In this document: one piece after another, positions 2,339-6,627 of the stretch
Position numbering within the stretch: position 1 is the first letter of the stretch
How the letters are laid out: each line of letters begins with the position of its first letter
Assembly: GCA_016872355.1 (NCBI GenBank)
Contig: VGZY01000025.1
Location: 1 to 38,093, forward strand
Direction: 5' to 3'
Length of the DNA stretch: 38,093 nt
DNA from: SAR202 cluster bacterium
GTDB taxonomy: Bacteria; Chloroflexota; Dehalococcoidia; Lucifugimonadales; VGZY01
The notes under the pieces: model-generated
The model's input: the letters and a program-made list of their open reading frames with translations, nothing else
The model's database searches: none
What the model was told of the DNA's origin: nothing
Translations under genes and position numbers: made by a program

Positions 2339-3319
2339 CTAGCGCCGCACTACAAGCTGGTAGACGGATTTGTCCTGCGCGCCCAGATCGTACTTGTACC
2401 GCTCGGTGCCGCGAAGGAAGTCAAATGTCTTCTTGCCGTTCTCTATCGCTTCCTTGATCGTCAGCGCCGTGTTCAGGAGCCCGACGCTCAGGTTGGCGTA
2501 CTCGGTGTCGTAGCCGCTGTTGTACAGCAGGTAGGAGTCGCCGTAATCGAAGTTGATGCACGCCGCAACTCGCTTGCCGCCGATCTCCATGACGCTGAGG
2601 CGGAACTGCCCCCGGGACGCAAGGTCCTTCGCCATTTCCAGGAAGTACTGCTCGCGAGCGGGGTTCATGAACCTGTTCTTGTTGGGGCTGCTGGCCTTGT
2701 GAAGGCGGAAGAAGTCCGGCATAAGGCCGGCAACCTCGTCGGGCGTGGTGCAGGTGTACTCTTTGCGGTCCGGCGCGGCCTCGGCCAGCCTGCGCTGCTT
2801 GCGCCGCAGCTCGTGCCTGTCCTTTTTCGGCAGTGCTGCCACATAGTCGTCGAACGTGGCCGGCAGGGGCATGAACGGGGCCTTGTCCTCCTCCTTAAGC
2901 TCGGTAGAGTACCCGGCCGCCTCGGCGAGCGATTTCATTCGCTCCGCAGTCGGGGACGATTGCAGCACCGACCGCAGGTCCATAGTGGTCCATTCCAGCG
3001 TCTTGAGGTGTGCGAAAAGGGCCGGGTAGAAGGCGTCCTCGTTGCCGTGGGGGACCAGGAAGTCGTGGTAGTCGAAAAGGTCCTTGCCGCCGAGGAAGCT
3101 CAGCACGCCGTCCCTGACCATCATCGGCGCCAGCCCCACGAGCCTGTCCCCCTCCCGCACCGAGAATACTCGCAGCTCCGGCGCCTTGCCGAAGTGGTTC
3201 ACCCACATCGTCTGTACCCACGGAGTCAGGAAAATCGTATCCGTGATGCATGAAGGCAGCAGCTTCGTCCATTCCGCCTGAACAAGGTGAAAGTCCTCCA
3301 GCCTGACCTGAGGGGTCAT
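2339..3319 (-). CDS. GNAT-superfamily acyltransferase, CelD/BcsL (FemAB-like) type
   Basis: A 326-residue protein resembling the double-GNAT Acetyltransf_6 family. It has the early FLTPWVQTMWVNHFG and APMMVRDGVLSFLGG segments, a basic helix near KKDRHELRRKQRRL, and a C-terminal GNAT core with the order RFMNPAREQYF, INFDYGDSYLLYNSGYD, and a terminal FDFLRGTERYKYDLG block. Relatives move acyl or aminoacyl groups in polysaccharide or cell-wall synthesis; the substrate here is unknown. The frame is open further upstream, but ATG 3319 overlaps the folE stop as ATGA, so I take it as the translationally coupled start. It ends 71 bases before the GT4 gene and is probably in the same operon. Confidence 0.75.
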   Translation of the reverse strand: MTPQVRLEDFHLVQAEWTKLLPSCITDTIFLTPWVQTMWVNHFGKAPELRVFSVREGDRLVGLAPMMVRDGVLSFLGGKDLFDYHDFLVPHGNEDAFYPALFAHLKTLEWTTMDLRSVLQSSPTAERMKSLAEAAGYSTELKEEDKAPFMPLPATFDDYVAALPKKDRHELRRKQRRLAEAAPDRKEYTCTTPDEVAGLMPDFFRLHKASSPNKNRFMNPAREQYFLEMAKDLASRGQFRLSVMEIGGKRVAACINFDYGDSYLLYNSGYDTEYANLSVGLLNTALTIKEAIENGKKTFDFLRGTERYKYDLGAQDKSVYQLVVRR

Positions 3320-3879
3320 TCCACCCTCCCCGCGAGGGCGTGGAACTGGCGAACGACGGCGGGGTCGGTCTGGAAGCTGCCCCTCATTGCGGCGGTCACA
3401 ATCTTGCTGCCGGGCTTCTTCACGCCGCGGATTGTCATGCACATGTGCTCTGCTTCGATTATCACGCCCACCCCGGAGGGCTGGGCCGTTGTGAATACTG
3501 CGTCTGCTAGCTGGGCGGTGAGCCGCTCCTGGAGCTGCGGCCGGCGGCCCAGGATATCCAGCGCGCGGCCGAGCTTGCTGGCGCCCACGACACGCCCGTT
3601 GGGAATGTAGCCCACGTGCGCGTGGCCGTAGAAAGGAAGGAAATGGTGCTCGCAGATAGCGTGGAACTGCATGTCCTTGAGGACCACCATCTCCTTATGC
3701 CCCTCATCGAAGCCCGTCTCCAGCACCCTGGCAGGGTCCTCCTCTATTCCGGAGAACAGCTCTGCGTACATCTCTGCCACCCGCCGGGGCGTTTCCAGAA
3801 GCCCCTCACGCCGAGGGTCCTCGCCTATGGCCTCAAGTATGGAGGCCACCGCCGCCCGTATCTTGTCCTGGTCAATCAA
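3316..3879 (-). CDS. folE: GTP cyclohydrolase I
   Basis: A 187-residue protein of normal family length. GTP cyclohydrolase I converts GTP to 7,8-dihydroneopterin triphosphate and formate, the first step of tetrahydrofolate synthesis. The zinc ligands are visible as ICEHHF (Cys76, His79) and EAEHMCMTIRG (Cys147), and the signature GVGVIIEAEHMCM is intact. Translation starts at TTG 3879 with GAGG upstream; no better start lies nearby. The stop overlaps the start of the downstream GNAT gene by four bases. The nearby glyA uses tetrahydrofolate, but on the other strand. Confidence 0.93.
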   Translation of the reverse strand: MIDQDKIRAAVASILEAIGEDPRREGLLETPRRVAEMYAELFSGIEEDPARVLETGFDEGHKEMVVLKDMQFHAICEHHFLPFYGHAHVGYIPNGRVVGASKLGRALDILGRRPQLQERLTAQLADAVFTTAQPSGVGVIIEAEHMCMTIRGVKKPGSKIVTAAMRGSFQTDPAVVRQFHALAGRVE

Positions 3880-4038
3880 ACTATACCTCGAGCCAGACGG
3901 CTCACATGCTTAAAACTTGGTCAAACTATCATAGCTCAGTTAAAGCTTCAATAGTCGGGAAACAGGAACTAATGGCGTCTCGAAGCCCAGATTCTCAAAA
4001 TGCACACTCAAATGGACTAATCAACCCCTTGTATCAGC

Positions 4039-4070
4039 ACGTACTACGTACTATATCGCCCGTAGTACGT
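4039..4070. promoter_or_regulatory. 10-bp perfect inverted repeat upstream of the DGQHR cassette
   Basis: ACGTACTACG (4039-4048) and CGTAGTACGT (4061-4070) are exact reverse complements with a 12-base AT-rich spacer. The element lies in the 300-base gap between the divergent folE and DGQHR genes. An operator for a dimeric regulator is the simplest reading; no regulator gene is adjacent. The rest of 3880-4186 shows no gene, is AT-richer than its surroundings, and I see no convincing promoter in it. Confidence 0.5.
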
Positions 4071-4186
4071 CCTGTCTTGCAAGTCAGACGTGTCAATAAG
4101 GACATAGAAAGGGGGCATTCCATCACAGTTTCGCAGTTTTACTAACGTTGGATGGGGTCGCAAAGTGAAAGGAGAGTGTCGCAGAA

Positions 4187-5431
4187 ATGGAAATTTAGAC
4201 CAGAGAATTCAGTACCTTGCAGGAAGCCTTCAACGCAGCGGCTGAAGCAGCAATGGTTAGTTTCGGACGGCCGGTATCGGGCATCCTGTATTCGCAGGCA
4301 GCCCGCCGCTTCATTTCGACCAGCCTTCCTGTCAAGTTGCTGCTAACTATTGCCAAGCGTGACAGCACAGGCAAGAAAGATGACCCAACAAAGCACCGGA
4401 ACAGGCCACTTGATCAGAGTCACGTGCGTGAGATCGCCCATTACCTGACGAGTGAAGAGAAGTACCTCGTCCCTCCGGTGATGCTGAATGCAGCACAACC
4501 GCTTCAAGTCTTCGCTTACCAGTCAACTGGCGCTACGAGACCCTGTGTATTCGTGCTCCCTCCCGACGAATACCTTTTCGTGACTGATGGACAGCACAGA
4601 CTGGAAGCTCTTCGAGAAGCCATCTCCGTCAAGCCCGAATTGGAGAAGGATGCGGTCGGGGTTACGATCATTGAGGAAGCCAATCTAGACAAGGTCCATC
4701 AGGACTTCTTCGATGCCGCACAGGTAATGCCGCTTGCAAAGGCGCTCCTTGTTGAATACGACGGGAAGGCACCCGTGAACTGGCTCACCCGCGAGGTCGC
4801 GAAAACCGTGCCGATTTTCCAAGGGCGCGTAGAGCGTATCGGGCACATGGGCAAGAATTCGCTCATGCTATTCACGACGAACCAGGTGAAGCAAGGTGTG
4901 CTTCAACTCGTTGTCGGCGATTGGGCGCTCTACGGCGATGCCATGCAAAAGCAGGCCGAGTAGGCCCTCAACCCTGCTAAGGACCTGTGGAAGGAAAGGA
5001 CTATCGAGTTCTTCAAGGAATTCACTGATTCGAACGACCAGTGGCATGAGGTTGCTACTAGGCCCCTCGAAACAGGACTGTCGACAGACATTCCAGGGAA
5101 ACGGGCCGATTACCTTCACCTCACGGGAGCCGGATTGCTGGTCCTATGCGGCGTTGGCCATTCCATTCTCCAACTGGCCGTTAGGCCGGACGGCACCCTA
5201 ACCGCCGAGCAAGCGGACAAGATACGCCAGCTTGCAGCGCTCGACTGGTCCCGGAAAGGTTCGCTTTGGAAGGACTATCTTGTTGGGAGCCATGGCAACG
5301 TGACTCCACATAAGAATCACATCGTTCTCGCCGTCGCCCGGGTGAAACAGGCATTAGGACTCCCGATTGCCCCAAAGGAAGCCGGCATCCTGCAAAAGGT
5401 TTCAGAATCGATGACCGGCTTGACTGTGTAG
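4187..5431 (+). pseudogene. DGQHR-domain (DndB-like) protein with in-frame amber codons
   Basis: One continuous reading frame, broken only by TAG codons. A good ribosome site (AAAGGAGAG, 4166-4174 region) precedes ATG 4187, whose frame reads Met-Glu-Ile then TAG (4196), then stays open to a second TAG at 4961 and a terminal TAG at 5429. If translation begins at TTG 4217 instead, only the 4961 codon interrupts it. The signature FVTDGQHRLEAL (DGQHR at 4586-4600) identifies the DGQHR family, which includes DndB of DNA phosphorothioation and other phage-defence proteins. The part after 4963 (AKDLWKERTIEFFKEF, LHLTGAGLLVLCGVG) looks like the missing C-terminal half; full length would be about 404-414 residues. 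It is followed by a methyltransferase gene in the same orientation. Nonsense decay is the default reading. Confidence 0.75.
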
Positions 5432-5514
5432 AGAGTCGTCATAGTGGAGATTCAGGGGTCGGTGGTCTATAATTCAGGCTGCCGACCCCAACTCTTTGTT
5501 CCTGTGAGCGCCTA

Positions 5515-6627
5515 ATGCCACCCCAAACGCACCGGCTCCACGCTCTTTGTCCGTATTTCGAGATGTTTCCGCCGAGTTTCGTTAGGCATCACCTGCGGGC
5601 AATAAGTCGACCCGGCGACGTAGTGCTCGATCCGTTTAGCGGAAGGGGTACGACATTGCTGGAGTCACTGCTCCACGATCGAATTGCCATTGCCCTTGAT
5701 GTAAATCCAGTCGCCGCATGTGTTTCAGGGGCGAAAGCGAATGTGCCGCGTTTTGAAGCGGTAACTGCTCGGCTGGTTGAACTGCGTGAGGAGTTACTCC
5801 GGGCCGATCTTGAAAGCATTGAGGAATAGAGAGTCGCGCTGCCAAGCTTCTTTCGAGCGGCATTCCACTACAGGACTTTGCGCGAAATCCTCTTCTTGCG
5901 CCGACATGTAAAATGGCGCGAGGATGCTGTCGACTGCTTCGTCGCAGCATTGGCGCTAGGTTCGTTGCACGGAGAGATGGACAAGTCAAATTCGTACTTC
6001 AGCAACCAGATGCCGCGTACCATTAGCATGAAGCCGAATTACTCCATGAAGTATTGGCGAGAGCGTCAGCTTCGTCCAAGACGGCGGCACGTCTTTCACC
6101 TTCTGCATGAAAGGGCTGTCCTGAGGTACAAAGATGGAATGCCAACTAGGCGCGGTGTGGTGGCTATGGCCGATTCCCGGCGTGCTTCGGGAACCCTCCC
6201 CACATGGCAGTCAAAGGTGAGCACAGTCACAACTTCTCCACCATATATCGACACGACAAGCTTCGAAGAGGACCAATGGCTGCGGCTATGGTTCCTGGGT
6301 GGCCCCCCACACCCTACTTATAACACCGTGTCCAAAGATGACCGCCATAGCGGCTCTTCCACTTACTGGAGGTTCCTATCGGAAGTTTGGCGCGGTATCG
6401 CGGCACTTTTGGCCCCCGAAGCGCGAATCGTTTGTCGAATCGGGGGAAAAGGCCAAACAGTCCAGTCTCTTGGCAACGGCCTTACACTCACGATCAGGTC
6501 AGCGTTTCCGAATGCCCGCCTAGTGTCGGCCCCGTTCGTATCCGCGCCAACGCAACGGCAAACGGACAACTTTAGACCAGGCACGACTGGCCATCGATTC
6601 GAGGCTGACTTTATTTTCGAGATCTGA
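5515..6627 (+). pseudogene. DNA methyltransferase (N4/N6-type) with one in-frame amber codon
   Basis: A 371-codon frame broken once, by TAG at 5827 (codon 105). The first part has the AdoMet motif LDPFSGRGTT (about residues 38-47) and the acidic LDVNP strand; the second part has TSPPYIDTTSFEEDQWLRLWFLGG (catalytic TSPPY near 240-244) and RIVCRIGGKG. Motif I precedes the catalytic motif by about 200 residues. The sequence on both sides of the TAG (LRADLESIEE, then RVALPSFFRAAF) reads as one uninterrupted domain, with no frameshift. The ATG overlaps the TAA that ends the extended DGQHR frame. No restriction nuclease is nearby. Downstream, 6628-6801 carries no gene I can support on the plus strand. 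Confidence 0.78.

Follow-up and report, generated by a model that had tools for sequence, protein, structure and literature searches.

The window, a 38,093-nucleotide stretch that is contig 25 of a draft genome assembly (3.07 Mb in 133 contigs, 97.6% complete), contains, between folE (on the minus strand) and glyA, a 2.7-kb stretch of foreign base composition: its GC content is 0.49-0.57, against 0.62-0.67 around it (0.55 for the cassette, against 0.63-0.65 for the flanking genes). Within it lie two adjacent genes, a DndB-family DGQHR gene and an N6/N4-type DNA methyltransferase gene, each crossed by at least one in-frame TAG (Table 1). The coordinates and stops that a sequence-only reading had assigned to both genes are correct on direct reading, and neither gene contains an internal TAA, TGA or frameshift, as had also been claimed.

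Table 1. Features of the DGQHR-methyltransferase cassette and its upstream region (positions in the window)
Feature	Position	Strand	Remarks
Promoter-like element TTGTAT-N17-TATATC	4029..4057	+	Upstream of DGQHR gene; weak by consensus alone
Inverted repeat CAGCACGTACTACG-12-CGTAGTACGTCCTG with TACG-N12-CGTA	4035..4074	.	14-nt arms, 93% complementary; probable DndB-type operator
DGQHR / DndB-family gene	4187..5431	+	PF14072, 208.5 bits; intact relatives L103 and L104; broken by TAG at 4961
TAG, codon 4 after ATG 4187	4196..4198	+	N-terminus unconserved there
Internal TAG	4961..4963	+	Replaces conserved Gln: CAG in L103 and L104; Gln also in L197 and L198
TAG, normal end of DGQHR gene	5429..5431	+	L103 and L104 proteins stop within ~1 residue of same place
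N6/N4-type DNA methyltransferase gene	5515..6627	+	PF01555, E=1.6e-14; PADLOC MTase_II, 3.8e-26; broken by TAG at 5827
Internal TAG	5827..5829	+	Replaces Glu: GAG in both L103 and L104

The genes and their in-frame stops

Membership of the first gene in the DGQHR family is secured by a PF14072 score far above the cut-off of 29.1 bits and by an intact DGQHR motif. The narrower DndB equivalog model TIGR03233 gives it 91.3 bits against a cut-off of 328, and dndC, dndD and dndE are absent from the open reading frames around it. For the window, the remark that it shows no other part of a phosphorothioation or restriction system is correct; its cassette contains no nuclease gene. An Rfam scan of the cassette region returned one sub-threshold chance match and nothing else. 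The methyltransferase has both of its signature motifs, DPFSGRGTT (FxGxG-type) and TSPPY (S/D/NPPY); these and the PF01555 score are present if the TAG at 5827 is read through, but the chain as encoded is split at that codon, which lies between the two motifs.

Three TAG codons are in frame with the ATG at 4187, and a single internal stop is in frame with the ATG at 5515, ahead of the TGA terminator at 6625. Of these four TAGs, those at 4961 and 5827 stand as internal stops. The TAG at 5429 is an ordinary terminator, because the proteins of the nearest relatives, L103 and L104, end there too, and the 27 sense codons that follow it, up to a TAA (5513-5515) overlapping the methyltransferase ATG, are a leader. 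The TAG at 4196 is a lesion if ATG 4187 is the start codon, and only then; the AAGGAG that precedes this ATG makes such a start plausible. The cassette thus has two internal stops that are certain and a third that is possible, rather than three or four.

Intact relatives

The closest relatives of the cassette come from groundwater Chloroflexi metagenome-assembled genomes; the nearest genomes available for comparison with the source genome itself belong to the same order. L103 (JACQUI010000214.1) and L104 (JACQUA010000350.1) are intact pairs whose DGQHR and methyltransferase proteins are 71% and 63% (L103) and 64% and 57% (L104) identical to those of the window. They have the same two genes in the same order on the same strand, at unrelated chromosomal sites in two other genomes, and, unlike the window cassette, they have no internal stops. 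As the sequence-only reading maintained, conserved sequence resumes after each TAG: alignments to the relatives continue straight through the stops. The homologue alignment that it proposed as a check identifies the residues as Gln (CAG) at 4961 and Glu (GAG) at 5827, and both window stops are a single substitution away from the relatives' codon. Of the proposed C-to-T decay of CAG codons, decay stands, as does CAG to TAG at 4961; the change at 5827 is GAG to TAG, a G-to-T substitution.

DGQHR relatives are also found on two viral contigs, L197 and L198, and a search of phage records returned no close relatives. On both contigs (L197, 6249-8080; L198, 4932-8185) a gene of ~200 codons comes after the DGQHR gene, and a methyltransferase gene after that. 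The middle gene has what appears by eye to be a nuclease-like motif, without a family match, and the row is possibly a restriction-modification-type module with a DndB-like regulator. A second arrangement, a three-gene cassette of a ParB-like gene, an unassigned gene and a methyltransferase gene, occurs in L023 (2874-6143) and L199 (4784-8089) (Mesorhizobium plasmid); its methyltransferase is ~50% identical to the window family, and the L023 ParB-like gene matches PADLOC PD-Lambda-5_A. From the viral contigs and these cassettes it follows that the family sits in restriction-modification-like settings. On a Rhizobium plasmid (L244, 361-2737), a DGQHR gene and a protein with a SAM-methyltransferase domain lie directly upstream of dndBCD.

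Promoter and candidate operator

The promoter-like element upstream of the DGQHR gene was not reported by a stricter promoter scan. Overlapping it is an inverted repeat of a quality expected by chance only 0.02 times in the window, with TACG-N12-CGTA itself at 4045-4064. In Salmonella, DndB regulates transcription and binds to a TACG-N10-CGTA site within the promoter of its own gene (PMC4507180); the cassette has the same kind of inverted repeat in its promoter region, at a spacing of 12 rather than the published 10. Among nine DndB-family upstream regions, three contain exact TACG-N12-CGTA, in four copies (one in the window, one in L197 and two in L243, a Priestia plasmid), a level reached in none of 1000 shuffles; other spacings from 8 to 14 do not occur in these nine regions. 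TACG/CGTA repeats lie in or beside promoters in L103 (5760-5810), L104 (478-540), L197 (4870-4950), L198 (4862-4925) and L243 (2820-2905), the promoters of the two viral-contig relatives being good ones. The half-site CGTACGACG, related to the window's CGTACTACG, lies in the spacer of a similar promoter element in L103; in L104 it directly follows a near-perfect promoter. Such an operator is not universal, since the more distant DGQHR genes L006-L008 show no TACG/CGTA enrichment upstream and the dndB genes L242 and L244 have no N12 site. These motifs suggest that the DGQHR protein probably acted as a DndB-like autorepressor, controlling the operon that it formed with the methyltransferase gene.

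Can TAG be read as sense?

The judgment that genome-wide recoding was unlikely is borne out. TAG is the commonest terminator among 136 long non-overlapping open reading frames sampled (TAG 65, TGA 42, TAA 29), release factor 1 is present (491 bits), and the two proposed genomic checks came back negative: among 46 tRNAs typed in the 97.6%-complete assembly none has a CUA anticodon, and no PylS scores above cut-off. Stop usage, release factor 1 and the tRNAs together rule out recoding of the whole genome.

The same facts weigh on the suggestion that the module is switched by conditional readthrough of amber codons. The conserved Gln at 4961 and the sense sequence directly following each stop are what such a switch would show; against it are the failure to find a UAG-reading tRNA, the presence of release factor 1, the use of TAG as the leading stop, and intact relatives that have no TAG at these positions. 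Nor do the TAG sites share a residue: those of the cassette correspond to Gln and Glu, those of a GHL10-like gene on contig 14 to Trp/Phe and Tyr/Gln. Residues that vary in this way, mostly one step from TAG, are expected of decay but not of recoding. A readthrough switch is accordingly very improbable, and it is just as hard to credit that the 2-3% of the genome missing from the assembly encodes a suppressor tRNA that provides low or conditional readthrough, yielding full-length regulator and methyltransferase in some condition.

Acquisition from a donor that reads TAG as Gln, such as a phage, was the other route proposed. Phages of this kind are known (PMC9523058), DGQHR relatives do occur on viral contigs, and position 4961 is a Gln; position 5827, however, is a Glu, and the viral and Chloroflexi relatives are single open frames in the ordinary code. 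A TAG-as-Gln donor is also unlikely because it would not have left 30 Gln codons of the ordinary kind in place, nor a DGQHR gene that naturally ends in TAG. Of all the explanations weighed here this one has the least to recommend it.

Is a TAG-only pattern surprising?

Lesions confined to TAG had been presented as non-random. Quantitatively this does not hold up: TAG accounts for 46-48% of the one-step nonsense changes possible in these codons and is their likeliest outcome, so a TAG-only pattern is unremarkable. Given this mutational share, the probability that two of two stops are TAG is ~0.22, and that three of three are, ~0.10.

Other in-gene stops in the genome were sought by family searches and in a 600-kb sample of genome stretches; a codon-statistics scan returned mostly neighboring same-frame genes and served only for the choice of candidates. 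A second DGQHR gene (L105, contig 35, 2211-3533) has a TAA at 2904 and a TAG at 3300, and its relatives in the order are intact; the adjoining PAPS-reductase-like gene (3536-4447, minus strand) has a TAG at 4004, and the relative of this gene in G172 (L209) also stops close to that point. The GHL10-like gene (L218, contig 14, 16624-18321), one of several paralogues in the genome, has two internal TAGs. An aldo/keto reductase gene (L226, contig 26, 2379-3359) has one TGA, at 2946, and an ABC transporter ATPase gene (L239, contig 104, 2000-3800) is in two halves in different frames, through a frameshift or an assembly error.

The broken accessory genes of this genome thus show mixed lesions, TAG, TAA, TGA and frameshift. 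With the two window stops included, the tally is seven TAG, one TAA and one TGA; the probability of at least seven TAG among nine is ~0.06 on the mutational expectation, for stops gathered in an unsystematic search. The lean to TAG is not significant.

Probable recent decay of the cassette

What the intact orthologues, the one-step premature stops and signs of relaxed constraint point to is the recent inactivation of a horizontally acquired regulator-methyltransferase operon, which we consider the probable history of the locus. A two-gene operon, encoding a DndB-like DGQHR autorepressor and then a DNA methyltransferase, would have entered by horizontal transfer and would since have suffered two or more independent nonsense substitutions of a single base: the regulator gene changed from CAG to TAG, the methyltransferase gene from GAG to TAG. 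Translation should end at each of these TAGs, so that the regulator lacks its C-terminal third and the methyltransferase is reduced to a fragment of 104 residues lacking TSPPY; because both products would be truncated in this way, the cassette is very probably non-functional. The stops would then be real in the living strain and recent, and repressor-controlled DNA methylation would have been the ancestral job.

Truncated products might instead still be useful: the DGQHR core of 254 residues could serve as a shortened regulator, and the methyltransferase could work in two fragments; the DGQHR motif, both methyltransferase motifs and the operator-like repeat are, after all, intact. But neither stop is shortly followed by an ATG or GTG start, the next in-frame starts (TTG 5135 and TTG 5878) lie far past conserved sequence, and all intact relatives are unsplit, which makes useful fragments improbable.

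The case for relaxed constraint comes from residues that changed in the window copy. At columns invariant in four other relatives, 18 changes are private to the window against 5 private to L103 (p=0.011), and in a three-way comparison 83 residues are private to the window against 58 (p=0.043). Some 20 missense changes per nonsense change are expected under neutrality; the excess of ~25 in the window would fit a recent loss of constraint, in a modest test with synonymous sites saturated. Branch-specific omega in a codon model does not rise significantly on the window branch (p=0.62), a comparison that saturation of synonymous sites makes uninformative. There is no indel in the 2.3 kb of cassette. 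With no indel and no significant rise in omega, decay, if that is what it is, must be recent.

The main rival to decay is that the stops arose through errors of sequencing or assembly, or are bases of a minority strain in a metagenome assembly, and that the cassette is in reality unbroken. False internal stops are known to result from assembly errors (PMC11017572), strong purifying selection (omega far below 1) is seen both before and after the stops, and isolated stops occur in several other genes of the assembly. On the other hand, 55 ABC-ATPase domain matches are without an internal stop, though one such gene looks frameshifted; the broken genes that were found are accessory; and random error at the stops alone would not produce the excess of changes at conserved residues. 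Error is much the less likely account, though a stronger contender than any of the other alternatives.

Implications and relation to known systems

The claim of recoding fails for this cassette, and the reasons (how the genome uses its stops, codons one step away, residues that differ between sites, lesions in other genes) should be useful in judging similar hits from scans. The ancestral module may matter more: different Chloroflexi chromosomes have DGQHR-methyltransferase cassettes, and have them in unrelated places. Because their promoters have TACG/CGTA repeats like the known DndB operator, comparison of these sequences suggests that DndB-type autorepressors may control DNA methylation modules outside phosphorothioation.

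The resemblance to code-15 phages (TAG=Gln) is limited to in-frame TAGs, one of them at a Gln position. Unlike such phages, the cassette has TAG at only one of ~31 Gln positions, has its other internal TAG at a Glu, and also uses TAG as a terminator. With orphan and type II N6/N4 methyltransferases (PF01555; PADLOC MTase_II) the second gene shares catalytic and cofactor motifs and family score; it differs in being preceded by a DGQHR gene, in having no adjoining restriction enzyme gene, and in being split by a stop. The DndB proteins of phosphorothioation clusters (PF14072/TIGR03233) have dndC, dndD and dndE beside them, whereas the window gene, at 91 against 328 bits on the equivalog model, has a methyltransferase partner and is broken. 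It nevertheless matches their Pfam family along almost the whole of its length, its DGQHR motif is intact, and the TACG/CGTA repeat upstream resembles, at a different spacing, the operator of Salmonella DndB (PMC4507180).
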